A program made the translations under genes and the position numbers. A stretch of 64,000 nucleotides of DNA, from NCBI GenBank assembly GCA_002238415.1, contig MPMI01000005.1, positions 62,001 through 126,000 of the forward strand. The letters are read 5' to 3'. Within the stretch, counting starts at the first letter, position 1; the number at the start of each line of letters is the position of its first letter. This DNA comes from Desulfurellaceae bacterium bin18. GTDB lineage: Bacteria > Desulfobacterota > Binatia > Bin18. Positions 10,117-64,000 of this stretch are shown one piece after another. The notes below the pieces were generated by a model. It was given only the letters and a program-made list of their open reading frames with translations. It was not told the DNA's origin and did not search any database.

Positions 10117-10815
10117 ATGAGCAACTTTACCAGCCCCGCAATACAGGCAATGAATCTCGTTCGATACATTGGAGATGAAGTAGTACGGTTAGGTAAACCA
10201 ATTGAGATGCTTGACTGCGCTGACATTCAGGAAATCATTGGCGCTCCCAGTGGTGAATTTGTGGAACAACTCATTGAAGACCTAAAGAGACGTGGCACCA
10301 TCAAGGGGGATCTTAATCCAGAAATGGGAGGTTCTTCTTCATTCTTTTCCGTCACTCTTACTCTCGACGGATGGGAGCAGTACGAGGCGGAAAAACGCGG
10401 TGAGTTCTCGGGTAACTACGGCTTCATTGCCATGCAGTTCGGAGACCCCAAACTCGACCCTTTTATGAAAGACATTGTAAAGCCTGCGGTGAAAGAAGGT
10501 ATTGGCTATAAACTCGTTGATATGCGTGATGTCGGGCGGGCCGGAGTTATCGACAACATCATGCGCACCCAGATTAGGGATGCTGCGTTCGTTATCGTTG
10601 ACCTGACGCACGGCAACCCGGGAGCCTATTGGGAGGCAGGTTATGCCGAAGGGCTAGGTAAGCCTGTTCTCTATATCTGTGAGAAAGCAACATTTGATGA
10701 AGATGGGACCCACTTCGACACTAATCACTGCACAACGATTTTCTGGTCCAGAGACGATGACGAGGATTTCAAGCAAAAGTTAATCGCCACGCTTCGCCGC
10801 TCACTCAACCTATAA
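10117..10815 (+). CDS. Nucleoside 2-deoxyribosyltransferase-like / TIR-like-fold protein
   Basis: The 232-residue protein has an N-terminal helical part (residues 1-85) and a C-terminal Rossmann-like domain. That domain opens with YGFIAMQFGDPKLDPFMKDI, then YKLVDMRDVGRAGVIDNIMR, AAFVIVDLTHGNPGAYWEAG and AEGLGKPVLYICEK. The pattern of hydrophobic strands, a DLT-x-x-N-x-G-x-x-E motif and an E-x-G-x-A segment is that of 2-deoxyribosyltransferase/TIR-like domains that hydrolyse nucleotides or NAD. In accessory regions such domains often act as defence effectors (inference). It starts 34 bases after the PLD-like gene. Confidence 0.7.
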   Translation: MSNFTSPAIQAMNLVRYIGDEVVRLGKPIEMLDCADIQEIIGAPSGEFVEQLIEDLKRRGTIKGDLNPEMGGSSSFFSVTLTLDGWEQYEAEKRGEFSGNYGFIAMQFGDPKLDPFMKDIVKPAVKEGIGYKLVDMRDVGRAGVIDNIMRTQIRDAAFVIVDLTHGNPGAYWEAGYAEGLGKPVLYICEKATFDEDGTHFDTNHCTTIFWSRDDDEDFKQKLIATLRRSLNL

Positions 10816-10848
10816 ACTTGCCCAAGAGCGAACACCCTAGACCAGTAG

Positions 10849-10874
10849 GTCGGATTAGCAAAGCGTAATCCGAC
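10849..10874. repeat. REP-like hairpin 1
   Basis: GTCGGATTA and TAATCCGAC flank an 8-base loop GCAAAGCG. The element recurs inverted at 12287-12312 with changed but still paired stem bases, so the hairpin itself appears conserved. Confidence 0.65.
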
Positions 10875-10988
10875 ATCCTCAACTGTTTGGAGCGTTCTCG
10901 ATAAACGGCAGGTATGCTTCGGTTTGCGTTGACGACAAATCAGGGTAGGATGGCTTGAAACCAAGCAAGCCACGGCAGGCAAAGGGCA

Positions 10989-11482
10989 TGGTCAGCGATC
11001 AGACTCGAAACACCATTTGGCAAGGACTGTTGGATATGGCCAGACTCGTCCGTTACTACGAGAGCCTAGCCGACCGGCATCGACGCAAACACTTTTGGAT
11101 TCGCGTCGTGCTCCTTGCCGCGGCGGCGAGTGGCATTGCCGCCTTGCTTGATCTGTTTCCAGAGGTCGTTCAGATTGTTGCAGGCGGTCTGGTCGCCCTG
11201 TGTGTCGTGTGGGACTTTGTGTCAGACTACGCAAAAAAAGCGGCCATCCTGCATGCAATCAGTATTGAATGCAGCGCTCTTGAGGTCGAATGGCAAGACT
11301 TGTGGGGCGATCTTGAGAACATCGACGACACGGAGGCTCGACAACGCAACACCCGCCTGTCACGGAGACTCAACGAGGTCACCGGATGGGCGGGGCATAC
11401 CGATATTCAAGAAGACCCAAAGCTGAACGAAAAATGCGAAGCCGCAGCCTACCGGGTGATGCAAGATCAATATGGCGTCTAA
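10989..11482 (+). CDS. Two-transmembrane SLATT-like protein
   Basis: The 164-residue protein has a helix with YYESLADRHRRKHFWIRVVL, two adjacent membrane helices (about residues 38-80: VVLLAAAASGIAALLDLF and IVAGGLVALCVVWDFV), then a long amphipathic tail. This arrangement is that of SLATT-type 2TM proteins, proposed pore-forming effectors associated with nucleotide-signalling defence systems. Its own regulator is not obvious nearby. The ATG at 10989 follows GGCAAAGGGC; an upstream ATG in frame is possible. Its stop overlaps the start of a polyproline micro-ORF. Confidence 0.65.
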
Positions 11483-11615
11483 CGTGAGAACCCGGACAGC
11501 CTCAGGGAAGCCTGCAAGGCCAGGTAAGACGCCACCACCTCCCCCGCCTCCCAGGCCCGAGCCGGAACAGGGTAAACCAAAACCCAACCAGGGTAAGAGC
11601 CAGGGCAAGAAATAG
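11472..11615 (+). CDS. Polyproline/basic micro-protein overlapping the 2TM gene
   Basis: A 47-residue ORF starts at the ATG inside the last codons of the 2TM gene. It encodes a short basic head, KTPPPPPPPRPEPEQGKPKP and an NQGKSQGKK tail. The overlap of 11 bases suggests translational coupling. The protein would be unstructured. From memory, small proline-rich ORFs do occur beside 2TM proteins in other genomes; this needs checking. It could be an immunity or adaptor peptide for the membrane protein (inference). Confidence 0.55.
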   Translation: MASNVRTRTASGKPARPGKTPPPPPPPRPEPEQGKPKPNQGKSQGKK

Positions 11616-11782
11616 TCCCTAGAGTTATTACCGAGACCAACGGCTCGTTGAACTGCGCCACCGCTGGCCCAACTCGTCCGAATGGGATGGACGAGACGAT
11701 GGCCAAAGCACTTAAGACCCGTAGCCGACCGTCGAGTGGGTGTGGTTTGACCAGGTTGCTTCTCGTTGCTACTTCTCTGTGT

Positions 11783-12076
11783 ATGAGATCGGTCGGAATA
11801 AAAGTATTGAACAGCCGGTTGAGCGAGTATGTGCGGCTCGCCGCCTCGGGCGAGACCGTTCTGGTCACGGACCACGACCGTGTTGTCGCGGAAATCGGTC
11901 CCCCGAGAGAAGCTAGAAGCCCGATGCTCGCCGATGCCCTGCTGGCCGAGGCCGTGCGCAAGGGGTGGCTGACGCCGCCAACGCTGCCCGCCACGGGGGA
12001 GCCTCCGACTCCGGAGCGAGTTGCGCCGCTCTCTACTCTTCTTGGCGAACTGGATGCCGATAGAAGCGAACGGTGA
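11783..12076 (+). CDS. Phd/YefM-family antitoxin
   Basis: The 97-residue protein contains GIKVLNSRLSEYVRLAASGE and TVLVTDHDRVVAEIGPPRE, the Phd/YefM fold signature (about residues 4-45). The C-terminal SPMLADALLAEAVRKGWL and TPP segment would wrap the toxin. The ATG at 11783 sits at the start of the fold; upstream extensions of this frame look random. Its stop overlaps the GTG of a PIN-type gene by GTGA, the usual antitoxin-toxin coupling. That toxin is broken. Confidence 0.85.
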   Translation: MRSVGIKVLNSRLSEYVRLAASGETVLVTDHDRVVAEIGPPREARSPMLADALLAEAVRKGWLTPPTLPATGEPPTPERVAPLSTLLGELDADRSER

Positions 12077-12261
12077 TCTACCTCGATACCTCTGTTGTGC
12101 TCGCCCAACTCCTGGCGGAAGACCGCCGCCCACCCGCGCCCTGGCTATGCCCGTCTACGACCTGGAACTCTCCTGAACCGTGCGAAGGATTAGGGTCGGA
12201 ACGAGGCGGGCGACGGAAAGGCGTTGTGCGAATTGCTGGAATTGAATCTGACGCAGGGTGA
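12073..12261 (+). pseudogene. PIN-domain (VapC) toxin, truncated
   Basis: The frame starts with IYLDTSVVLAQLLAEDRRPP, which has the first PIN motif with its catalytic Asp (residue 4). After about residue 22 the sequence loses all family resemblance and stops at 62 residues instead of about 130. A frameshift or deletion just after the first helix is likely. The coupled antitoxin upstream remains intact. Confidence 0.75.
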
Positions 12262-12286
12262 GTGAAAAGTGATTGGTGGAGGAGAT

Positions 12287-12312
12287 GTCAGGTTACGCTT
12301 CGCTAACCTGAC
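12287..12312. repeat. REP-like hairpin 2 (inverted relative to hairpin 1)
   Basis: GTCAGGTTA and TAACCTGAC flank CGCTTCGC. Its reverse complement matches 10849-10874 with surrounding GTAGGTC and GACAT bases conserved. The differences in the stem are compensatory. Confidence 0.65.
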
Positions 12313-12383
12313 CTACGGCTAGCCTTCTTTGGCCAAGTTGAGCGTAATCTGGATTGCATGAACGGCAGCGGAGGGAGCACAGT

Positions 12384-12878
12384 ATGGACGAGCGTATCTA
12401 CAACCGAAACCGAAAATGGACGCGAAAGACGTTCCTAGATAATTTCACCATCGCAGAAGAACGTCATGCCGCGCAACGCCTTTTAGACGTAGCCCGAGAT
12501 TCTGGTGCCGCCTTTCACTGGGGACCGAGTGGTGTGAGCATCCGCATGCGATGCTCGCTTTGGGGAAACCCAGTCTCCGTCGCTTGGCTCTACCCGCCGT
12601 CAACCACAGACAACGGGTGGATGAAAACCCGAGATTTCTCTTTCGGAGTCGCAATACTTGACGAAGAGCCGCCTCCGCCGCCCGCATTGAGCACCGTCCT
12701 TAAGCAATGGGCGGATCAATTTGGAGCCGATAGTTTCACCATTAGGGTGGTAAAAGCTAGCGGGCTACCTGTCAAAGGCGTAGACGCGTGGTCGGTCGAC
12801 TACCCCGACGCGGTCCAGCACCTTGACCTTCTCTCGAAGCGACTTGCCAATATCCTGACGAAACTGAAATCGCTGTGA
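12384..12878 (+). CDS. Hypothetical protein
   Basis: The 164-residue soluble protein starts at an ATG with GGAGGGAGCACAGT upstream. It has RKTFLDNFTIAEERHAAQRL near the N-terminus, a hydrophobic beta-like centre and EEPPPPPALSTVLKQW around residue 94. I do not recognise a family. It sits alone between a decayed toxin gene and the metabolic block starting at 12971, and may belong to the accessory cluster. Confidence 0.6.
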   Translation: MDERIYNRNRKWTRKTFLDNFTIAEERHAAQRLLDVARDSGAAFHWGPSGVSIRMRCSLWGNPVSVAWLYPPSTTDNGWMKTRDFSFGVAILDEEPPPPPALSTVLKQWADQFGADSFTIRVVKASGLPVKGVDAWSVDYPDAVQHLDLLSKRLANILTKLKSL

Positions 12879-12970
12879 TGAGGCAGCACACTGTGCCCCG
12901 GCGATAGACAAGCGCGGGAGTTTTTGTTTTTCTAGGCAGCCTCTACTACGAACCCAAAAGGAGAACGCAT

Positions 12971-13984
12971 ATGCTGCCAGTTGGTTATCTCCCCTGTACT
13001 CAAGACCCCCCGTCCGGGACGAATATGGGACGGGTGATTGATGAAGTTATTGCCGAAGCCCAGGCCGCGGAGGCCAGTGGCTGGGACGGTTGCTTTCTGA
13101 CCGAACACCACCAGCAGGAAGACGGCTATCTGCCCAACCCGTTGCTGCTAGCCGGCTTGGTCGGGATGAAGACCGAACGCATAAAGGTCGGCACGTGCGT
13201 GTTGTTGATGCCGCTCCACCATCCCGTCCATGTTGCGGAAGACTGCGCCGTGATCGACCAGGCGACCAAAGGGCGGCTCGTTCTGAGTCTCGGCGTGGGG
13301 TATCAGCAGCACGATTTCGACGCGTTCGAGATTCCGATCACCGAGCGGGCCACCCGGACCGAAGAAGCCATCGACATTATCCGCAAGAGCTGGACGGGTG
13401 AGCGCTTCTCTTTTGAGGGCAAGCATTTTCGCTATCAGGACACCCTGATTACACCCGGCCCAAGTCAACAGTCCGGTCCGCCGATCTGGATGGCGTCCTG
13501 GACGCCGGTCGGACTGCGCCGGGCAGGGCGGCTGGCGGATGGCTGGATCGCCGACCCGGTACAGAGCCTTGGGGTCATTAAAGACTATGCCAGCCGCTAC
13601 CGGGCAGCCGCGGAAAAGGCGGGCCGCAAACCGTATATCTGCCTGATGCGCGATGCCGTGCTGGCCGACAGCATGGCCGACGCCGAAGCCGCCAGCGAGC
13701 CGACCATGTATACCCACCGCTTCTACTTTCAGTATGACGCCTATGTCCAGGATGAACACATCAAGGACGTCAAGACCCCTGAAGAGCTGAGCTTTGGCAT
13801 AGCCTCCAAGGAGCGGCTGATTGTGGGCTCGCCCGAAGACTGTCTGGAGCAACTCCAGATGTGGAAAGAGGCGATTCAGCCGGATTATTTGATCATGCGC
13901 TTTCGACAGCCGGGTGGTCCGTCGCACGAGAATACGCTGCAAGCGATACGCACCTTTGGCGAAAAGGTCATTCCGAAGTTGTAA
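12971..13984 (+). CDS. Luciferase-like flavin-dependent monooxygenase
   Basis: The 337-residue protein resembles the one at 3522: CFLTEHHQQEDGYLPNPLLL near residue 39, IKVGTCVLLMPLHHPVHVAE near residue 64, GRLVLSLGVGYQQHDFDAFE, and PPIWMASWTPVGLRRAGRLA. It should use reduced flavin to oxidise a small organic molecule. AAAAGGAGAACGCAT precedes the ATG. It heads a rightward run with MmgE/PrpD and a further monooxygenase, suggesting one catabolic unit. Confidence 0.92.
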   Translation: MLPVGYLPCTQDPPSGTNMGRVIDEVIAEAQAAEASGWDGCFLTEHHQQEDGYLPNPLLLAGLVGMKTERIKVGTCVLLMPLHHPVHVAEDCAVIDQATKGRLVLSLGVGYQQHDFDAFEIPITERATRTEEAIDIIRKSWTGERFSFEGKHFRYQDTLITPGPSQQSGPPIWMASWTPVGLRRAGRLADGWIADPVQSLGVIKDYASRYRAAAEKAGRKPYICLMRDAVLADSMADAEAASEPTMYTHRFYFQYDAYVQDEHIKDVKTPEELSFGIASKERLIVGSPEDCLEQLQMWKEAIQPDYLIMRFRQPGGPSHENTLQAIRTFGEKVIPKL

Positions 13985-14042
13985 GGGCGTTTCTTTTCCA
14001 GCGATCCTCACCCCGACCCTAGGGGAGAGGGGAGGGCCATAT

Positions 14043-15416
14043 ATGGAAATTCCGCTGACCCAACATCTGGCCGCATTCTGTACCCGGCTCGACTACGACA
14101 GCCTGCCGGTCGAGGTGGTCGATCGGGCCAAATACTTCTTTCTCGACTATCTCGGTGTTGCGGTGCGGGGCTCGCTGTCCGATTCCAGCCAGCCGCTCTA
14201 CCGCCTGGCGGACAGTCTGTCCTCGACGGGGCAGGGAACGGTCCTGGGCCGTGCGGAGAAGGCGAACTTTCCGTATGCGGCCCTGGCCAACGGTACGTCC
14301 GCCCATAGCCTGGAACTAGACGACACCCATCAGGCCGGCTCGATTCATCTGGGTGTGTCGGTCTTTTCCGCGGCGCTCGCCGTGGCAGAGCAGGTAGGCG
14401 CGAGCGGCAAGGATTTTCTTACCGCCAGCGTGGTCGGCTTTGAGGTCGCGGCCCGGCTGGCCATGGCCCTCAAACCGACCGAGCACTACGGCCGCGGGTT
14501 TCATCCCACGGCGACCTGCGGCACCTTTGGCGCTGCGGCCAGTGCGGCCAAGCTGCTGGGCTTGAGTGAAGCCCAACTGCTGTCCGCCCTCGGCATTGCC
14601 GGCAGCCAGTCTGCCGGGTCGATGGAGTTCCTGGCCGAGGGAGCCTGGACAAAACGCTTCCATCCGGGCTGGGCCGCGTTCAGCGGCGTTCATGCCGCCC
14701 TGCTGGCAAAAGAAGGCTTCATTGGCCCGCGTACGATCCTCGAAGGGCGGGACGGCTTTCTCAAGGCGTATGGGGTGCGGCCCGAGCCAGGCAAAATCAG
14801 CGAGGGTCTGGGCGAGGATTTCCAGATTCTGCAAACCGCGGTCAAACCGCACGCCTGCTGCCGCTATACCCAGGCTCCGATCGACGCAGTGCTCAGCCTC
14901 GTACGGGAACATGATGTGCAACCCGAGCAGGTTGAGCAGGTTACCATCGGCATGCTCGAAACCGGCATTCCGGTCATCTGCGAGCCGGCCGAGCGTAAAT
15001 ATCGTCCCACGAATGTGGTTGAGGCCCAGTTCAGCTTGCCCTTTGGCGTCGCAGTAGCGTTGGCCAAACGACGGGCCGGGCTGGATGAATTTTCCGAAGC
15101 CATGCTGGAAGATGCCGCAGTCGGAGCGCTCATGGCCAAGGTCAGGTATGAACATGACCCGCAACTGGAAGAAAACTATCCCAAGGAATGGCCGGCCTGG
15201 GCGCGTGTTGCTCTGGATACCGGACGAGAAGTCTCTGCTCAGGTGCGTTTCCCAAAAGGCGACCCGGAGAACCCGTTGTCGTGGGATGAACTGACGGCGA
15301 AATACGCCGATCTCGCGACCGCGGTATGGACGGATGAACACGCCAGCCGGGTGTGCGAGGCGGTTCGGGCGCTTGAAGCCGAATCCGATCTGCGTAAGGT
15401 GACCCAAGAGTTGTAA
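14043..15416 (+). CDS. MmgE/PrpD family protein
   Basis: The 457-residue protein fits the MmgE/PrpD family (2-methylcitrate dehydratase and relatives): AKYFFLDYLGVAVRGSLSDS near residue 30, NGTSAHSLELDDTHQAGSIH near residue 83, HPTATCGTFGAAASAAKLLG near residue 155 and KPHACCRYTQAPIDAVL near residue 275. Members are dehydratases or isomerases of polycarboxylates; cis-aconitate decarboxylase is a relative. The exact substrate is not predictable. The ATG at 14043 follows GGGGAGGGCCATAT, part of a repetitive GAGAGGGGAGGG tract. It lies between two flavin monooxygenase genes. Confidence 0.9.
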   Translation: MEIPLTQHLAAFCTRLDYDSLPVEVVDRAKYFFLDYLGVAVRGSLSDSSQPLYRLADSLSSTGQGTVLGRAEKANFPYAALANGTSAHSLELDDTHQAGSIHLGVSVFSAALAVAEQVGASGKDFLTASVVGFEVAARLAMALKPTEHYGRGFHPTATCGTFGAAASAAKLLGLSEAQLLSALGIAGSQSAGSMEFLAEGAWTKRFHPGWAAFSGVHAALLAKEGFIGPRTILEGRDGFLKAYGVRPEPGKISEGLGEDFQILQTAVKPHACCRYTQAPIDAVLSLVREHDVQPEQVEQVTIGMLETGIPVICEPAERKYRPTNVVEAQFSLPFGVAVALAKRRAGLDEFSEAMLEDAAVGALMAKVRYEHDPQLEENYPKEWPAWARVALDTGREVSAQVRFPKGDPENPLSWDELTAKYADLATAVWTDEHASRVCEAVRALEAESDLRKVTQEL

Positions 15417-15449: not shown

Positions 15450-16517
15450 ATGGATTATGGTTATGTGTTTCCTGGTGGAGTGCATGTCTACAAAGATGTC
15501 ATGCTGGCGGAAAAGCGCGGCTATACGCACGCCTGGCTGTATGACTCCCAAATGTTGTTCAGCGATGTGTATGCATCCCTGGCCTTGTGCGCGGTGAATA
15601 CCAAAAAGATCAAGCTGGGGCCTGGGGTGACCAATCCGGCCTCGCGCATCGCACCGGTCACGGCCGGCGCGATTGCGTCCATTAACGAACTGGCGCCCGG
15701 CCGGACCATCCTCGGGATCGGAACGGGGAATACCGCCCGGCGGACCCTGGGTATGCCCGCAGCCCGGCTGATAGACATGCGCGAGCACGTCGAGACTTGC
15801 CGCGACCTGTTGGCAGGCAAGACCACGCCCTACCAGGAAGGCCACCGGCGCCGCATGGTGAAGTTCCTCAACCCCAAGGGTGGCTGGATCAATATCAGGA
15901 AAAAAGTGCCAATTTATGTCGCGGCGAGTGGTCCCAAGACCCTGGAACTGGCGGGCGAAATCGCTGACGGCATTATTCTGTTTGGCGCCGTCAGCCCCAG
16001 CCTGATTGAGTTTGTGATGAATCACATCCGGACCGGAGCCGAGCGGGCCGGGCGCAACCCCAAGCGGATTTATACTCTATGCATGACCGCCTTCCATCTC
16101 ACCAACAAGGGCGAGTCGCTCGAAACCTCGAAAGTCCGCAGCGCCGTCGGGCCGTTTGTCTCGTCCTCCAGTAATATTTTTGCCTTTTCCTGCCCCGACC
16201 CGAAAGACCTGCCGGCTGATGTGCGGGACGACCTGATGGCTTTCAAGAATGCCTATCGTGCGCCCGAGGGTTCGATCGAAACCCGCCACCTCAAGCTCTA
16301 CGCCGATTATCTGCAAGGCTTTAAGAAGGAGCACGAGCCGCTAGTCACGGAGAAGATGATTCGGGCCACCACGCTGACCGGTACCAAGGAAGAAGTGCTG
16401 GAATCGGTCAAAGCCATGAAGAAAGCCGGCATCAAGCAGGTCGCGGTCCAGCCGGTGACGGACGCCCGGACAACCATTGACGCCTTTGCCCGCGCCGTTA
16501 TTCGCAAGATGAAATAG
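15450..16517 (+). CDS. Luciferase-like / F420-dependent oxidoreductase
   Basis: The 355-residue protein is of the methylene-H4MPT-reductase-like branch of luciferase-like proteins. It shows GYTHAWLYDSQMLFSDVYAS near residue 25, KIKLGPGVTNPASRIAPVTA, INELAPGRTILGIGTGNTAR near residue 85 and VAASGPKTLELAGEIADG near residue 155. TGGAGGAATGAAGA precedes the ATG. It may share a transcript with the MmgE/PrpD gene 33 bases upstream. F420 or FMN use cannot be decided. Confidence 0.9.
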   Translation: MDYGYVFPGGVHVYKDVMLAEKRGYTHAWLYDSQMLFSDVYASLALCAVNTKKIKLGPGVTNPASRIAPVTAGAIASINELAPGRTILGIGTGNTARRTLGMPAARLIDMREHVETCRDLLAGKTTPYQEGHRRRMVKFLNPKGGWINIRKKVPIYVAASGPKTLELAGEIADGIILFGAVSPSLIEFVMNHIRTGAERAGRNPKRIYTLCMTAFHLTNKGESLETSKVRSAVGPFVSSSSNIFAFSCPDPKDLPADVRDDLMAFKNAYRAPEGSIETRHLKLYADYLQGFKKEHEPLVTEKMIRATTLTGTKEEVLESVKAMKKAGIKQVAVQPVTDARTTIDAFARAVIRKMK

Positions 16518-17928: not shown

Positions 17929-18166
17929 AGGATTCTCCTCTCGTGTGTCAGGGCGTGCGGTTGACTCGCTATTTAATCCCCCCCGAGAAGGGAGGAGAAC
18001 CGCTCGCAACTGAGCGCTTTCCAGTTCCGTAACTGTCGGATACGTAGCTCCTTTAGCATGATTTCTGGAATATTTTTATCTGCTTCCATTCACTATAGGA
18101 TATAGCGCAATCATGCGGAGAGTATAGGGCCGAGAGTTGGAAGAGGGACACGCCGTGAATAATAAC
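17929..18166. other. Promoter-like intergenic region before CRISPR repeat R1
   Basis: No gene is seen. The AT-rich part 18050-18120 could contain a leader for the rightward repeats or the divergent promoter of the leftward monooxygenase gene. No clear -35/-10 pair was fixed. Confidence 0.3.
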
Positions 18167-18203
18167 ACTGCTCGCCTGTTCTCTATGAAGAGGGAATTGA
18201 AAC
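18167..18203 (+). CRISPR. Solitary degenerate CRISPR repeat (R1)
   Basis: From 18173 the sequence CGCCTGTTCTCTATGAAGAG continues GGAATTGAAAC, matching the array repeat with one change. The first ~6 bases have diverged. There is no second repeat at one spacer distance; instead a gene starts 27 bases downstream. R1 is 706 bases from the next repeat (R2). Confidence 0.85.
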
Positions 18204-18230
18204 ATTGACGGAAGTGAGGAGAATCACCGT

Positions 18231-18791
18231 ATGAATAAGCACAAGCTCCGGGAATTGATGACTCATTTGCAATCAATTCCCCATTATCCGCATCCACCCA
18301 AAATAGACTATGATTTTACCGGATACCAAGAACCAGTGGAATCTTCGCTGACCACATATCCCGATTACTTTTCGATGGATTATCATTGTGACATTTTACA
18401 CGAAAAAAGCGGCGACATTATGGTTGGCGATCTCGCGGCTCACGGTCTTGTCATGCAAAACTGCTTTACGGGCGTGCCGGATGAGCCGAAGGGATTCCGA
18501 CAGCATGTAGCCGCATTTGCCACGGCGTTTGCCATGCCATCGAAAGTGGCGTGGGAATTGGCGTGGCCCCATCTGAAAGATACCTGGCGTATCACTTCAG
18601 CAGAGATGGCCCGAGCTTTGGGAAAGGCGCTGAATGGTGGGACACTCGTCTACCATTTGTGGGATCATGTATTTGATCGATGTCCCATGACAGAAATAGC
18701 GCATGCCGGATATGATTTGGAAGTTCGGAAACAATGGGAAGGGTTTGATTCCTTACCGTGGTATTTGCGAGATGGAGAGGAAGGAACATAA
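18231..18791 (+). CDS. Hypothetical protein located between CRISPR repeats
   Basis: The 186-residue protein starts at ATG after GTGAGGAGAATCACC. I do not recognise a family. It is rich in His, Trp and Tyr, has no membrane segment, and contains SAEMARALGKALNGGTLVYH in its second half. It starts 27 bases after solitary repeat R1 and is followed after two bases by a micro-ORF that ends inside repeat R2. The pair thus occupies a cassette bounded on both sides by CRISPR repeats. A plasmid or phage origin is likely. Confidence 0.6.
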   Translation: MNKHKLRELMTHLQSIPHYPHPPKIDYDFTGYQEPVESSLTTYPDYFSMDYHCDILHEKSGDIMVGDLAAHGLVMQNCFTGVPDEPKGFRQHVAAFATAFAMPSKVAWELAWPHLKDTWRITSAEMARALGKALNGGTLVYHLWDHVFDRCPMTEIAHAGYDLEVRKQWEGFDSLPWYLRDGEEGT

Positions 18792-18793
18792 CG

Positions 18794-18931
18794 ATGTTTC
18801 CTCAAGCAGAATTGGATGCCATGTGGGCACAGGCGGTGGCCGGCATTCCGAAAAAGAAATCGGGACGACCAAAAGGTTCGCGCCGAAACAAACCCGCACC
18901 GAAAAGCAAGTTACACGCCTGTTCCCTATGA
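18794..18931 (+). CDS. Basic micro-protein ending inside CRISPR repeat R2
   Basis: The 45-residue ORF encodes MFPQAELDAMWAQAVAGIPK and an AT-hook-like basic stretch KKKSGRPKGSRRNKPAPKSK. Its last seven codons lie in repeat R2, which supplies the TGA stop. The G-R-P-K-G core resembles DNA minor-groove-binding AT hooks. It follows the 18231 gene by two bases. The repeat may have replaced its natural 3' end. Confidence 0.5.
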   Translation: MFPQAELDAMWAQAVAGIPKKKSGRPKGSRRNKPAPKSKLHACSL

Positions 18932-19532
18932 AGAGGGAATTGAAACAGTACTGCTCACGAAAATCAATCGCGATTTGCTTTTGGTTACACACCTGTTCCC
19001 GATGAAGAGAGAATTGAAACCTTATTTTTGCCACGATTATCAAGATTTGATAAGTGTTACACACCTGTTCCCGATGAAGAGGGAATTGTGCGACATGAAG
19101 TCGCTTAAGGTGATGGTCCATTTGGACCCAGCTAGTATACAGACTGACATCACGACCCACATGCGTCCTGAGTAATCGGGGGGGTGTGAAGCTGGGACGA
19201 AAGCCTAATGGCAGCGAGAACCATAATCAAAGCCAGGGCAAGATGTAGGTTGACATGGTGAACGAAAGTGAATCCTTGCACAAGTAGGCGTCGTTACCTC
19301 CAGCTTCCGAAATCTATGGTTGATACGGAAGTATTGAGACAACAGAAGTACTAAACTCAAGCGATCATACGGGCAGCGGAAACGCCAGCCGTCAGCGGGG
19401 TTATGCGGTCATATGACTCACATACTCTGTCACCTTCAAGCTACCATCGCTTGAGCCGTGTGCCGTGAGAGTGGCACGCACCGTTCTTAGAGGGGAAAGG
19501 AACTGAAAAGTTCCCAACCTACTCGACGAAAC
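18910..19532 (+). CRISPR. CRISPR mini-array (R2-R4), last repeat interrupted by a group II intron
   Basis: Three 37-base repeats start at 18910, 18984 and 19056. The unit begins GTTACACACCTGTTCCC and ends GAGGGAATTGAAAC; the terminal ATTGAAAC resembles a type III/I 5' crRNA handle for rightward transcription. Spacers are 18947-18983 (37) and 19021-19055 (35). Repeat R4 reads 19056-19087, then 440 bases of intron, then its last five bases GAAAC at 19528-19532. R2 and R3 differ by a few bases. The nearby cas10 remnant suggests a type III system that has lost most genes. Confidence 0.93.
19088..19527 (+). ncRNA. ORF-less group II intron inside CRISPR repeat R4
   Basis: The 440-nt element begins GTGCG (5' consensus GUGYG) and ends CTCGAC (3' AY). 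A 34-nt domain V sits at 19453-19486: GAGCCGTGTGCC, loop, then GGCACGCACCGTTC, with the catalytic AGC-type strand. A domain VI hairpin GGAACT-GAAA-AGTTCC follows at 19498-19513, with an unpaired A near the 3' end. No reverse transcriptase/maturase ORF is present. Splicing at these ends would join AATT to GAAAC and restore a perfect 37-base repeat. It would need a maturase in trans, or splices poorly. Class is not assigned. Confidence 0.9.
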
Positions 19533-19534
19533 CT

Positions 19535-19813
19535 GTGACTGGCCATGTCCCCCCAGAAATCGTGATTGCCTTTTGGGGACGCTGTGAAAGCTATCATATC
19601 CCCAAAGACCTCGCACTACAAGAAGCAATGGAATTGTGGATGAAGAAACCGTTACCACGAAAGAAAGCAACACCCCAACAAAAACCAAACGGAGGTGCGT
19701 ATAAGGATACAGTGAAAGCAAGAAAACGCCGGAAAAAGCCAACAAAACCCAGCAACGTAGAGAAAAGGAGGCAAATTATTCAACAGCATGAAACAGCAGC
19801 CAAACAATCGTGA
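19535..19813 (+). CDS. Lys/Arg-rich hypothetical protein next to the interrupted repeat
   Basis: The 92-residue frame opens with GTG two bases after the repeat ends. It has a folded-looking head (IVIAFWGRCESYHIPKDLAL, then QEAMELWMKK) and a very basic tail with KARKRRKKPTKPSNVEKRR. The start is uncertain: an internal ATG at 19628 is possible. If the intron is removed, the repeat's GAGGG would lie about 11 bases before the GTG and could serve as a ribosome-binding site; unspliced RNA lacks one. Likely a small nucleic-acid-binding plasmid/phage protein. Confidence 0.5.
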   Translation: MTGHVPPEIVIAFWGRCESYHIPKDLALQEAMELWMKKPLPRKKATPQQKPNGGAYKDTVKARKRRKKPTKPSNVEKRRQIIQQHETAAKQS

Positions 19814-19816
19814 TTG
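19805..19816. promoter_or_regulatory. Palindrome upstream of the 19840 gene
   Basis: CAATCGTGATTG is a dyad with 5-base arms around GT. The same 12-mer lies at 20417-20428, before the ParB-like gene, and 11 of 12 bases recur at 19557-19568. Likely a shared operator. Confidence 0.45.
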
Positions 19817-19839
19817 TGGACGGTATGAAAGGAGGTTCC

Positions 19840-20343
19840 ATGAGGGCAATTGTATATCCGGTCGGGGCTGAATACACACGGAAAAACTTGAAAAAGCTCG
19901 ACCAGTCCATTCGGGATACATCGACGGCAATTCAGCAACTGTACGATCTTGATGAGTGGGATCAAGCCAGCCGCGAAAAGGCCAAAGAAATTTGGCTTAT
20001 GCTCACACAGCAACGCTACAGCGATGTGGATCACGCCCTCCATGCATGGCGATTGAACGCACCGCATAAAATGGCGTTTGTTCAGTTTTTGGCGTATGTG
20101 AAGGAGCAGTGTCTGGCTCGCGTGCATTGGCTTCGATTGTTTGAACAGTTGACAGACCGCCCTTTACCCGAGGAGGAAGCTAATCACATGCTGAAATATC
20201 CGGTGCAACCGGAACCCTCGCCAGAAATTGATCAGTTGTTGGGTCTTGTGGAATGGATCGATAGCGTGACGGTCAATCTCGTGAGCGAGAAGGGAAACGT
20301 GATGGTTTACTTTCCAGAACCAAAAGAAAAGGAGGATAGATAA
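19840..20343 (+). CDS. Hypothetical protein of a plasmid/phage-like cluster
   Basis: The 167-residue protein begins at ATG with the strong site AAAGGAGGTTCC. It is largely helical (YTRKNLKKLDQSIRDTSTAI, then QQLYDLDEWDQASREKAKEI) and has no recognised domain. It lies between the basic protein next to the CRISPR array and a ParB-like gene, all on the same strand. A palindrome at 19805-19816 sits in its leader. Confidence 0.65.
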   Translation: MRAIVYPVGAEYTRKNLKKLDQSIRDTSTAIQQLYDLDEWDQASREKAKEIWLMLTQQRYSDVDHALHAWRLNAPHKMAFVQFLAYVKEQCLARVHWLRLFEQLTDRPLPEEEANHMLKYPVQPEPSPEIDQLLGLVEWIDSVTVNLVSEKGNVMVYFPEPKEKEDR

Positions 20344-20416: not shown

Positions 20417-20428
20417 CAATCGTGATTG
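20417..20428. promoter_or_regulatory. Palindrome upstream of the ParB-like gene
   Basis: A second exact copy of CAATCGTGATTG lies 47-58 bases before the ParB-like start. See 19805-19816. Confidence 0.45.
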
Positions 20429-20474
20429 CTGTTGTGACACCTTGTATGATGGAAGCCTGTCAGGAGAAAAACGT

Positions 20475-21440
20475 ATGGCCGAAAAACGCACAGCAAAACC
20501 GACTTCGATGGACGCAACCGAGTTCATTGAAAAAGTATCCGTTATTGAAGGCAGCAATATCCGCCTCGATCTAGGAGAGATCGAAGAATTTGCTAAAGAA
20601 ATCCAGGGCCAAGGCCAACTCTACGAGAACATCCGCATCCGTGAGGCGACAGCCGAAGACAAAGCAGCCGGCGTCACGACTCCTTATGCTTTGAATGCGG
20701 ACGGCCACCGGCGACATGCGGCTCTGGCCTATCTGGTCGAAAACGATTTGGTTGAAGATTTTGCGGAAGTTCCGGTCACAGTTGTGTGTGCCGGTACTCG
20801 CACCGATGTTTTGGTGGAAATGTTGGCAACGGGTTCGGAAGTGGACAAAAAAGCGCTCACAGCCGTGGAGGAAGCCAACGGTTTTACCCAACTTCGGGAC
20901 GAGGGCCACTCGGTTGAAGAGATTGCCAAACTGGTCGGAAGGACCGGGCAGTTTGTTCGAGACCGGATGCGATTGTGGAAAGCTTCGGAAGAGTTGAAAG
21001 ACGCTTCGAAAGACCTGTCCAAGGGCGGAATCGGTACATCGATGGCCGTTCAGATTGCTCGGGCACATCCTGACGATCCTGAGAAGCAGAAAGAACTTGT
21101 GGCCCGCGCCCAACAAGGCCCAGAAGCGCGAAGCGAGATTAGCCGCGAACTCGACATGGATGGCGGAAAAAAGCGCCGCGAAAGGGAAGAGGAGGTTCGG
21201 GAAACCCAACTCAAAGAGTATTTGTCCTCACTGAGGAATCTGATCGTAGACGCGCAAAAGAAGCGCAACTGCCCGCAGGAGATCAAGGACATCCGGCTGG
21301 ACAGCGAGGACCCGCTCGACAAAGTGGCCGATGGGTCCACCCTGAACCGGATTATCTTTGCCTACGGTAAAGCCCGAGGTGCTCTGGAAGCCTTGGGCGG
21401 CGAAGATGCTGACAAGACCAACATCTGGGATTACTCCTAG
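20475..21440 (+). CDS. ParB/Spo0J-like nuclease-HTH protein
   Basis: The 321-residue protein has a ParB-type N-terminal domain (IRLDLGEIEEFAKEIQGQGQ, then ALNADGHRRHAALAYLVEND near residue 75, matching the GERR box region). A helix-turn-helix follows: LRDEGHSVEEIAKLVGRTGQ, then FVRDRMRLWKAS, near residues 140-170. A charged coiled region completes it. Such proteins bind centromere-like sites of plasmids and phages or regulate genes. No ParA partner is present. TCAGGAGAAAAACGT precedes the ATG at 20475. It runs into the decayed cas10 gene on the opposite strand. Confidence 0.82.
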   Translation: MAEKRTAKPTSMDATEFIEKVSVIEGSNIRLDLGEIEEFAKEIQGQGQLYENIRIREATAEDKAAGVTTPYALNADGHRRHAALAYLVENDLVEDFAEVPVTVVCAGTRTDVLVEMLATGSEVDKKALTAVEEANGFTQLRDEGHSVEEIAKLVGRTGQFVRDRMRLWKASEELKDASKDLSKGGIGTSMAVQIARAHPDDPEKQKELVARAQQGPEARSEISRELDMDGGKKRREREEEVRETQLKEYLSSLRNLIVDAQKKRNCPQEIKDIRLDSEDPLDKVADGSTLNRIIFAYGKARGALEALGGEDADKTNIWDYS

Positions 21441-21481: not shown

Positions 21482-22804
21482 CTAGATGACTTCTTCCCAG
21501 TCGGCAGCCAATTTCCAGGCAAAACCCAGTTGGGAGAATTCTCCATCCACACCGGCCCCTTCAAACCTCACCAAGTATCGTGCCTGGACGACCCGGTGCC
21601 CTATCTCCACATGATGTTTGCAGGCGGGGCAGGTCCCTCCAGAACCCTTGACAAAATCGGACTGACACACCGGGCAGACACTCATAGACTTCTCATAGTC
21701 AGGCAACTCGAAGAGCGACGCCTCCAGTACGGAGTAGAATTTCTGCCGCTTGGCCCGCCCCAGGTTATAGCCCGATTGCTGCATCAAACACGGGAAGTTG
21801 GCCAGCAATTCCTTATTGGCCGGGGTGGCTGCGCTCACCAATGCCAACTCGCCCTGGTGCTGCCCGACCAACCAGCGATTGACCTTCTCCTCTGCCTTTG
21901 CCAGCTTGGTTTTCACTTCATTGGTATGGGGGGCCAGGATCGAAAAGTGCCCACCGCCGCAGTACAGCAGGTTGGTCGGTGGCAAATTCAGTTTGCACAA
22001 GTAGTAGCGCCCTACGGGCTCGGCTAGCAGCACCAGAAACAGAGACCGGCCCCGTAAACGCTTGGCCATGTTTTTCGTTCCACCCTCCTCGGCTGGGCTG
22101 GCGAGTTTGTAGAGAAAGGACTGGATGCCGGATATATCCCCTTGAATGAACAGAAACGGATTCTCTGCCGAATCCGCTTCGTGCAAGCATGACGCAATGG
22201 CGGCCACTGACCGGGCGTGGTCGTAGAGCGAGATATCCGGGTGCGATTTGGAAGCCGCAGAAGCCACGTGGCTCAGATGTTTACGGATTGCCCCTAAGAA
22301 GGTCTCGATTCAACCCGTCAAGTCGCCATCGGGTAGTTTCTCGATCTCGGCGCAAAACTGCTTCCAGGCCCGGTCGTGTTCGTCCGGTGGTTGTTTCCAT
22401 TCGGGCCACTTGACCCTCTTGACAGACATCTGTTCTGGAAAGGGGTTGGCGAAATCCACCGGCCCAGGGACGTACCGATACACATCCTCTGGTGGTTCGC
22501 CTTTACTGATATCTACGGACGTTAGGACACTGACCAGGGATCGCAAAGTCTCGGGTCTGCCATCTACCCGCCGACCTGCTGCGGCGAGACAGTCGGCTTC
22601 CCTCAGCAAGGGATTATCCAACTCGACGAGTAATCGGCGAATCTCCTCCAGAATTGGTGCTAAGCAGCGGAAGCGGGCCAGATATTTAGTGACGAAAAAG
22701 TCACCGTAGGTGGCGGGGTGCGTCCGCTGGTCCGATTTCCTGAATTCAAATCTGCCTATATCATAGAGCAAAGCCCCTATGAGCAGCGATTCTTTGGATG
22801 CCAT
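21482..22804 (-). pseudogene. cas10: cas10/csm1 (type III CRISPR), nonsense-interrupted and C-terminally truncated
   Basis: Reading leftward from the ATG at 22804, the N-terminal part has ESLLIGALLYDIGRF, an HD-domain motif where the His is replaced by Tyr. At 22310-22312 an in-frame TGA interrupts the same frame. Beyond it come NPFLFIQGDISGIQSFLY, LLYCGGGHFSILAPHT (palm-1 region) and the zinc finger CPVC...CPAC. The gene ends about 20 residues after the beta strand following the zinc finger. The palm-2 domain with GGDD and the C-terminal D4 domain are absent. Cas10 makes cyclic oligoadenylate; this copy cannot. A deletion junction with the ParB-like side is likely near 21441-21481. Confidence 0.88.
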
Positions 22805-22817
22805 AACGTATGCTTCC

Positions 22818-23024
22818 TCATAGGCAAATCTGCCCCTCGATACAGTGGCGGCCTGAATGATCTCCACCGGACCGACTACTCGTTTCAAGGTGGCATGCCG
22901 GCGCCAAGCCGAAAAATGCAGTTTCCTGCGACTGTCCGTCGGAGAATCGATACGTCGCCTTTCTGTATCCGATCTGCCTGTTTTCCAGGCCTCGGCCAAG
23001 AAATGTTACCAGCGTGTGGGCCAT
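22818..23024 (-). pseudogene. CARF-domain CRISPR-associated protein, N-terminal fragment
   Basis: The leftward frame from ATG 23024 reads MAHTLVTFLGRGLENRQIGY and RKATYRFSDGQSQETAFFGL, then loses similarity. The start (beta strand, F-L-G-x-G, Y-R-x-A-x-Y-x-F) is the pattern of Csx2/Can/Card-type CARF proteins, which bind cyclic oligoadenylate made by Cas10. Only the first ~50 residues remain. It precedes the broken cas10 on the same strand, consistent with a former type III operon. Confidence 0.7.
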
Positions 23025-61940: not shown

Positions 61941-62086
61941 AAAGACTATTATAGTGAACACTTCGTATAAAAGGAGAGGCGTGGAGAAAGGTGTGCTTAC
62001 CTTTCCGTTGTCTGTTGGAAGGAATGGGCCTGAGACACTTTTTTCTTGCCGGAAGTCACAGAAATCGATAGGATGGGCGAGACGCT

Positions 62087-62628: not shown

Positions 62629-64000
62629 CTAGCGTCCAATCGTGTCTGACAGCTTCATCTTTTTCTGGACGGCAGTAAGATAGCCGCCACCGCCTAGCGG
62701 TGTGGGAACCTCAAGCTCCTGGACGACTTCTGCCTGAGCCGTGTTGATGACCGAGATCAGGCCGTCTCCACCGTGCGTGACAAATCCCCACTGCCCGTCT
62801 GGAGTCAGTGCCGGGAGTCGCAACTGCTGTCCCTCCGCAAATGGCGGCAGGTCTGGATCAAGCGGCTCCTGTAAGGCCGGAAGCGCAATCGTGGTCATGA
62901 TCTGCGTGAATGTCGGAGACTGGGGGTCGGCATCAAGCAGGAATGCGCGATCGCCCTGCGGGCCTTGCAGAATGTAGAGCGCCACGGTTCTGGAGAGGGC
63001 AAAGCGGTGCAACAATCCCGGACCAAGGGCGACTCGGGTGACCGCTCCAGTTTCGAGGTTGCCGACATACGCATCGTTTGACCATTTGGTCCAATCGGTC
63101 GGATCCGCAGAATCATCTCGAATAAAGGAAAAAACCGTCCGTTGGTCATCGGCAAGGCGCACATACAACGCGCGCCCTCCACTGCGCTCAGCAGTGCCAT
63201 AGGGCAGGGTAATACCAGGCGTCAGATCTCCGCCCTCGATGTCTGAGCACTCAATGCCCATGTCCGTCGCTGAGCAATATACTTTCAGCTTATGGCTGAT
63301 TACATCACCCTGAGGCCGGGAACCTAATTCAACATCGCTGAGGAATGCCTCTTCGTTACTGATGAGGCGACTGAGACGAAAGGCTTCATGAATGCCTTCT
63401 TCATGATGTTCCTCTTCGTCCTCGTGTTCGCCTTCGTGTTCGTCCTCATGCTCGCCTTCGTGTTCGTCCTCATGCTCGCCTTCGTGTTCGTCCTCATGCT
63501 CGCCTTCATGCTCGTCGTGTTCGTCCTCACCCTCGTGGTCGTGGTCTTCTTCGCCCTCGTGGTCTTCTTCGCCCTCGTGGTCGTCCTCGCCCTCGTGGTC
63601 GTCCTCGCCCTCGTGATCTTCTTCACCCTCGTGGTCGTGGTCGTCCTCGCCCTCGTGGTCGTCCTCGCCCTCGTGGTCGCCCGCTTCATCATGACCCGGC
63701 GCGCTTTCCGCAAAAGCCAACTCGCTTCCGAGGCGTTGTAAAAGCATGTCGGGGCTTCGGGCGATCGCTATACCGGGCACTTCACTCTCAATAGGGTTCG
63801 TTGCAATGGTGCTATAGGACGAGGAAGTCCACCAGCGTAAATCGACCACGGAGACAGACCCCCCACCTGTGCCGTGGTCGTCCTCATGAGCATGCTCATC
63901 CTCGTCGTGGCCGTCGTGGTCGTCCTCGTGGCCATGCTCATCCTCGTCTTCTCCTTCGTCATGGTCGTCCTCATGGCCATGCTCATCCTCGTCATGGCCG
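62629..64000 (-). CDS. His/Asp/Glu-repeat secreted beta-propeller-like zinc protein (5' end outside window)
   Basis: The frame stays open leftward from the window edge to a stop at 62629. The visible N-terminal part contains GHDEDEHGHEDDHD-like repeats, GSVSVVDLRWWTSSS, then a second tract of 80+ residues of DHEGEDDHEG and EHEGEHEDEHEG units. The rest has strand motifs LYILQGPQGDRAFLLDADPQ and LPALTPDGQWGFVTHGGDGL with ISVINTAQAEVVQELEVPTP, typical of a beta-propeller. It resembles periplasmic zinc chaperones of the AztD type (from memory). Its repeats give the opposite strand long hydrophobic frames that are not genes. Confidence 0.8.
   Translation of the reverse strand, partial: GHDEDEHGHEDDHDEGEDEDEHGHEDDHDGHDEDEHAHEDDHGTGGGSVSVVDLRWWTSSSYSTIATNPIESEVPGIAIARSPDMLLQRLGSELAFAESAPGHDEAGDHEGEDDHEGEDDHDHEGEEDHEGEDDHEGEDDHEGEEDHEGEEDHDHEGEDEHDEHEGEHEDEHEGEHEDEHEGEHEDEHEGEHEDEEEHHEEGIHEAFRLSRLISNEEAFLSDVELGSRPQGDVISHKLKVYCSATDMGIECSDIEGGDLTPGITLPYGTAERSGGRALYVRLADDQRTVFSFIRDDSADPTDWTKWSNDAYVGNLETGAVTRVALGPGLLHRFALSRTVALYILQGPQGDRAFLLDADPQSPTFTQIMTTIALPALQEPLDPDLPPFAEGQQLRLPALTPDGQWGFVTHGGDGLISVINTAQAEVVQELEVPTPLGGGGYLTAVQKKMKLSDTIGR

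Follow-up and report, generated by a model that had tools for sequence, protein, structure and literature searches.

The window analysed here is a 64,000-nt stretch of contig MPMI01000005.1 of Desulfurellaceae bacterium bin18 (positions 62,001 to 126,000), and the features relevant to this study are collected in Table 1. A small CRISPR array occupies positions 18910-19532, and its third repeat is interrupted by a 440-nt group II intron that contains no ORF. The repeat is divided into GTTACACACCTGTTCCCGATGAAGAGGGAATT on the 5' side and GAAAC on the 3' side, the exons at the junction reading GGGAATT and GAAACC, and the intron begins with GTGCGAC and terminates with CTACTCGAC. Rejoining the two exons restores a 37-nt repeat, with two and one differences from intact repeats 1 and 2, respectively. 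The segment comprising domains V and VI (19451-19527) matches the Rfam group II model RF00029 with 57.3 bits (E 1.3e-8; cut-off, 40 bits). Immediately upstream of the break, the repeat contains a hairpin (TTCCC/GGGAA) with an 8-nt loop. In Cas6-processed repeats the crRNA handle is generally formed by the last 8 nt, here presumably ATTGAAAC, and the break between ATT and GAAAC falls three bases into this sequence. The initial annotation had located the 5' junction within 19080-19092, an interval that indeed covers it, and had proposed that the intron splits the handle right behind the repeat hairpin; the junction, the rejoined repeat and the Rfam match all bear this out.

Table 1. Features of the CRISPR locus and of the intron within its third repeat (positions in the window)
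Feature	Position	Strand	Basis
Lone CRISPR repeat copy, 5' end degenerate	18167..18203	+	repeat comparison
CRISPR repeat 1, 37 nt	18910..18946	+	repeat comparison
Spacer 1, 37 nt	18947..18983	+	between repeats 1 and 2
CRISPR repeat 2	18984..19020	+	repeat comparison
Spacer 2, 35 nt	19021..19055	+	between repeats 2 and 3
5' exon: initial 32 nt of CRISPR repeat 3, including the hairpin TTCCC/GGGAA	19056..19087	+	sequence comparison
Group II intron remnant, ORF-less, 440 nt	19088..19527	+	Rfam and profile comparison
5' portion of domain I; homology to the family model at positions 1-282	19088..19326	+	nhmmer, E 3.6e-26
Junction at which the relatives' EBS2/EBS1 arm is missing	19327..19343	+	pairing test, family model, motif position
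D2/D3-like shortened middle, weak similarity only; motif AGAAGTACTAAACTC at 19344	19344..19450	+	motif, alignment
Domain V; the lower stem carries one C-C mismatch	19453..19486	+	Rfam match, sequence reading
Domain VI, putative branch-point A, 3' end	19487..19527	+	Rfam match; branch point by analogy
CRISPR repeat 3, last 5 nt GAAAC (3' exon)	19528..19532	+	sequence comparison
csm1/cas10 fragment, profile 177-424 of 753	21482..22267	-	family profile match
csm1/cas10 fragment, profile 2-154 of 753, other frame	22310..22999	-	family profile match

The 37-nt repeat, allowing up to 3 mismatches, matches the window twice, a level reached in none of 100 shuffles. At the same stringency the pattern was found in three places of the bacterium's own genome, all at this locus (the whole-repeat pattern used in this search would miss the split copy), and in 6 of the 292 genomes searched, own genome included; no viral contig matched it. 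Related repeats form regular arrays, spaced by about 70-77 nt, in genomes G006, G008, G043 and G098. In G006, which belongs to the same genus, the first 10 nt of the repeat are identical and 5 of 37 positions differ from the rejoined window repeat; two ORFs of this genome, scanned against protein families, gave no match. The G098 array (locus L159) adjoins cas3, cas8a, cas7, cas5a, cas6, cas1 and cas4. Since the shuffles lack the repeat and related repeats are arranged in regular arrays in other genomes, we consider the window repeat to be genuine rather than a chance resemblance. Two intact repeats and a split one, the related arrays and a csm1 fragment nearby are the characteristics of a CRISPR array. 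No exact match to the first 30 nt of spacer 1 or the first 29 nt of spacer 2 was found in the viral contigs.

The ORFs at 18231-18791 (186 aa) and 19810-20343 (177 aa), situated between and after the CRISPR repeats, show no family match. The same region contains four palindrome-like CAATCGTGATTG sites (18965-18976, 19557-19568, 19805-19816 and 20417-20428), near a ParB-like gene at 20442-21440. Allowing one mismatch, these four matches compare with 0.79 expected, and four were reached in 2 of 100 shuffles; a possible role is that of partition or operator sites belonging to an integrated plasmid. When an orthologous empty site was sought by way of the ParB-like gene, no full-length match was obtained outside the own genome (58 genomes).

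The cas genes of the window, as judged from family searches with a dozen of its 171 listed ORFs, are limited to the two csm1 fragments in different frames, and the single Csm1_B match in the own genome is this very copy. Searches of the own genome for RAMP genes (PF03787) and for Cas6 (PF10040) gave no matches, but the controls were positive in only 4 and 2 of 14 genomes, respectively, and the assembly is 96.4% complete, such that the absence of these genes is not certain. Four Cas1 stretches are distributed over three contigs of the genome, two of which carry arrays with other repeats near the cas1 match. Three such arrays with different repeats were observed near cas1, at positions 144-2042 of locus L019 and at 10330-14700 and 15972-16218 of locus L020. 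The array of the window appears to be a relic near a truncated csm1. Given this relic state, the truncation of csm1 and the failure to find a RAMP or PF10040 Cas6 gene, splitting of the repeat is probably without effect on immunity.

The family affiliation of the intron was assessed through its relatives. RF00029 has three matches in the own genome, namely the window intron and two full-length sisters, which encode intron-encoded proteins (IEPs) of 570 and 559 aa, both of them group II reverse transcriptase (RT)/maturases (TIGR04416) with an HNH-like tail recognised by sequence reading and a weak match to an IscB model. In a comparison with PDB that covers the 559-aa IEP, the closest match is 6me0 (residues 15-554), with an E-value of 2.5e-117, as opposed to 1.8e-39 for the RT of GsI-IIC; we take the former to be the maturase of T.el4h, a IIB/CL intron from Thermosynechococcus, and the latter to represent class C. 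Judging from their translations, the ORFs that host the two sisters are probably glyoxalase-like in one case and DUF1329-like in the other. The intron family is common and widespread: its 5'-end pattern occurs in 78 stretches of the genome contigs and in one viral contig (79 entries). Among the 78 is L115, from a Candidatus Binatota MAG, which appears to be one and the same contig as C522 of G012, a genome of the window's own family. The window intron gave only short matches in plasmids (no more than 15% of the query) and none in phages. As domain I is homologous to the CL-like family, the window intron is presumably of class CL, an assignment that derives from the sisters and this homology rather than from an IEP of its own or a class tree.

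Comparison with the family shows what the window copy has lost. The family model, built from 49 relative introns, spans 584 positions, and the window intron matches it at positions 1-282 only. In a leave-one-out test of the 49 relatives, 42 reach model position 330 and 38 reach position 450; as the remaining 7 of the 49 also stop before position 330, loss of the profile match alone is no proof of a deletion. A D2-like motif, which lies 3' of the EBS1 hairpin and serves as a marker of the arm's far side, could be identified in only 16 of the 49 relatives. In these it falls at intron positions 309-370, and in the window copy at 257. Because domain I homology stops at 282 and the motif resumes early, we conclude that the EBS2/EBS1 arm is missing. 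EBS1 (6 bp) and EBS2 pairing with the 5' exon was found in both sisters and is lacking in the window copy, for which reason we refer to the latter as a remnant rather than an intact member. No IEP is evident in the ORF listing within the 440 nt, a length too short for the 559-570 aa IEPs of the sisters. The two ends of the intron and its domain VI are well preserved, indicating that the intron is not heavily decayed. All in all, its sequence suggests that it is probably dead and neither splices nor moves.

A perfect 10-nt inverted repeat, CTCAAGCGAT and ATCGCTTGAG (19356-19365 and 19446-19455), overlaps domain V, whose folding it might disturb. An inversion of domain III between these two repeats was considered but is not put forward here: the reverse strand could be aligned to domain III (score 19), but the forward strand aligned slightly better (20), and the best scores were reached by 4 of 300 dinucleotide shuffles in the reverse and 4 of 300 plain shuffles in the forward orientation.

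The manner in which the family recognises its targets was examined in the sisters and then in the relatives at large. Both sisters target coding DNA. In the sister on contig C68, a hairpin loop contains TCCGATA, which pairs without mismatch with the final 7 bases of the exon; in that on contig C5, GTTGCTCTT in a hairpin loop pairs perfectly with 9 exon bases; and in each a further hairpin offers an EBS2 candidate of 5 bp. The pairing set comprised 85 entries (the 79 matches, five further entries and the window; not de-duplicated), 57 of which were long enough. Of these, 21 attained a hairpin-loop EBS1 pairing score of at least 5.2 with their own exon, versus 10.5% of swapped pairs. The window intron ranks 53rd of the 57, and no EBS1 was found in it. 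When no hairpin was required and EBS1 was sought by complementarity alone, the search proved too loose and was discarded (16 of 57 versus 12.1 expected, barely above chance); its one 7/7 match in the window copy, AGTTCCC at intron position 422, lies inside the domain VI stem.

For the hairpin test, 79 of the 85 entries, the window included, were retained after dropping those with less than 60 nt upstream or with repeated exons, and 8491 positions served as background. Upstream stems of at least 5 bp occur at 26 of the 79 family sites versus 25.1% of the background, those of at least 6 at 13 sites versus 9.3%, and those of at least 7 at 5 sites versus 3.3%. With stems of 4 to 8, the family sites slightly exceed the background, which amounts to at most a slight tendency and no convincing excess. 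The initial annotation had suggested checking whether related introns lie after hairpins; these sites give no convincing sign of it, and the repeat hairpin as a landing site is not supported, in view of the long EBS1 and EBS2 pairing of the sisters.

No site in a CRISPR array was found among the relatives, many of whose loci have little flank on one side; a repeat-like stretch near one relative's intron (L044) was read as a coding repeat. The pattern of the intron's 3' end followed by GAAAC was present in 1 of 395 genomes, the own genome, and in no viral contig. Of 164 loci, the 13 that contain it all cover the window site itself. Thus, no further insertions into CRISPR repeats turned up, a check that the initial annotation had called for. 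It is highly improbable that the conserved, palindromic and repeated nature of CRISPR repeats makes them a recurrent landing site of IIB/CL introns, partly recognised by their hairpin, with the intron trans-spliced to rebuild the repeat RNA.

What is seen here is very probably a IIB/CL-type intron that has decayed within a CRISPR relic, having arrived there by ordinary insertion and not by hairpin-guided landing. An IIB/chloroplast-like intron would once have entered the last, leader-distal repeat of a small array in the sense orientation. Entry of the ancestor most likely proceeded through ordinary EBS1/EBS2-IBS pairing with the repeat sequence, using a maturase that may have been supplied in cis or by sister introns. 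Comparison with the relatives shows that the present copy is devoid of an ORF and of the EBS arm of domain I and carries a mismatch in domain V; this decay presumably followed the insertion, and splicing and mobility are probably gone.

The initial annotation had pointed to class C (IIC) introns, which would have landed on the repeat hairpin as they do on terminators. The site directly behind a stem of 5-6 bp, the compact length of the intron and the scarcity of stems of at least 6 bp in the background would agree with such an event; however, domain I is homologous to a family whose sisters use both EBS1 and EBS2, the sister IEP resembles 6me0 much more than the class C RT, no terminator-like site was found in 18000-19700, and the stem overlaps IBS1 instead of preceding it. 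According to portions of PMC7923331, IIC pairing involves an IBS1 of 3-4 bp, and there is no evidence for EBS2; pairing in the sisters extends over 7-9 nt and includes an EBS2 candidate. We thus consider a class C landing very unlikely, and assignment of the intron to class C was rejected in view of the sisters' pairing and IEP together with the unconvincing hairpin excess.

A living ORF-less intron, spliced in trans by a sister's maturase such that the repeat is restored in the RNA, would be in keeping with the sister IEPs in the genome and with the retention of both intron ends and domains V and VI; ORF-less introns, as described in parts of PMC4424553, are rare in bacteria and usually occur alongside related IEPs. 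The absence of the EBS1/EBS2 arm, the mismatch in domain V and the lack of any sign of a working crRNA pathway for the window array nevertheless render this quite unlikely. As the genome is a draft of 83 contigs, an assembly artefact that joined an intron fragment to a CRISPR repeat was also weighed, but on either side the exon agrees exactly with the repeat right up to where the intron should begin or end. A faulty assembly would scarcely produce such a junction, and the split repeat is located well inside the contig; we regard such an artefact as extremely unlikely. The site is real and unusual, and its cause is ordinary.

The insertion had also been expected to disable any crRNA from the split repeat unless the intron were spliced first, a claim that is weakened by the position of the break. 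Although the handle is divided, both the repeat hairpin and the presumed Cas6 site remain on the 5' side, and since no repeat follows the split one, no crRNA would be lost unless more repeats once existed. The intron lies in the sense orientation if the array is transcribed, and could have been spliced while intact; now that the exon-binding arm is lost, splicing is unlikely.

Like IIB/CL introns related to 6me0, the window intron has a GTGCGAC 5' end and domains V/VI, and its sisters possess both EBS1 and EBS2 as well as IEPs with an RT/maturase and an HNH-like tail; unlike them, the window copy lacks the ORF and the EBS1/EBS2 arm, has a domain V mismatch and is located inside a CRISPR repeat. 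IIC introns, reported in parts of PMC4424553 to insert at terminators or attC sites, resemble it in compactness and in the hairpin just upstream, whereas the family of the window intron shows long EBS1 and EBS2 pairing and no convincing hairpin preference. A parallel in setting is offered by the IIB introns in integron cassette arrays, for which portions of PMC7923331 speculate on a role of secondary structure: here, too, an IIB intron occupies a repeated, hairpin-forming array element, but the elements are attC sites in those arrays and a CRISPR repeat in ours. Titles and abstract openings in the literature yielded no report of a CRISPR repeat interrupted by a group II intron. The present locus represents a rare and clean case of such an insertion and indicates that CRISPR arrays are not exempt from retroelements; the split position by itself is not evidence of hairpin-guided targeting.

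Two further observations were made in passing. In L093, from a Chlorobiaceae MAG, a family intron directly follows an apparent family-intron 3' end (reverse strand, near 457), the junction reading CGTTACCCGAC and then GTGCGAC, such that the two would form a tandem pair. Near the end of the window, short tandem repeats occur at 63583-63667 and 63929-63993, with more on the contig's next stretch (L013); they probably encode a His/Asp/Glu-rich protein on the minus strand.
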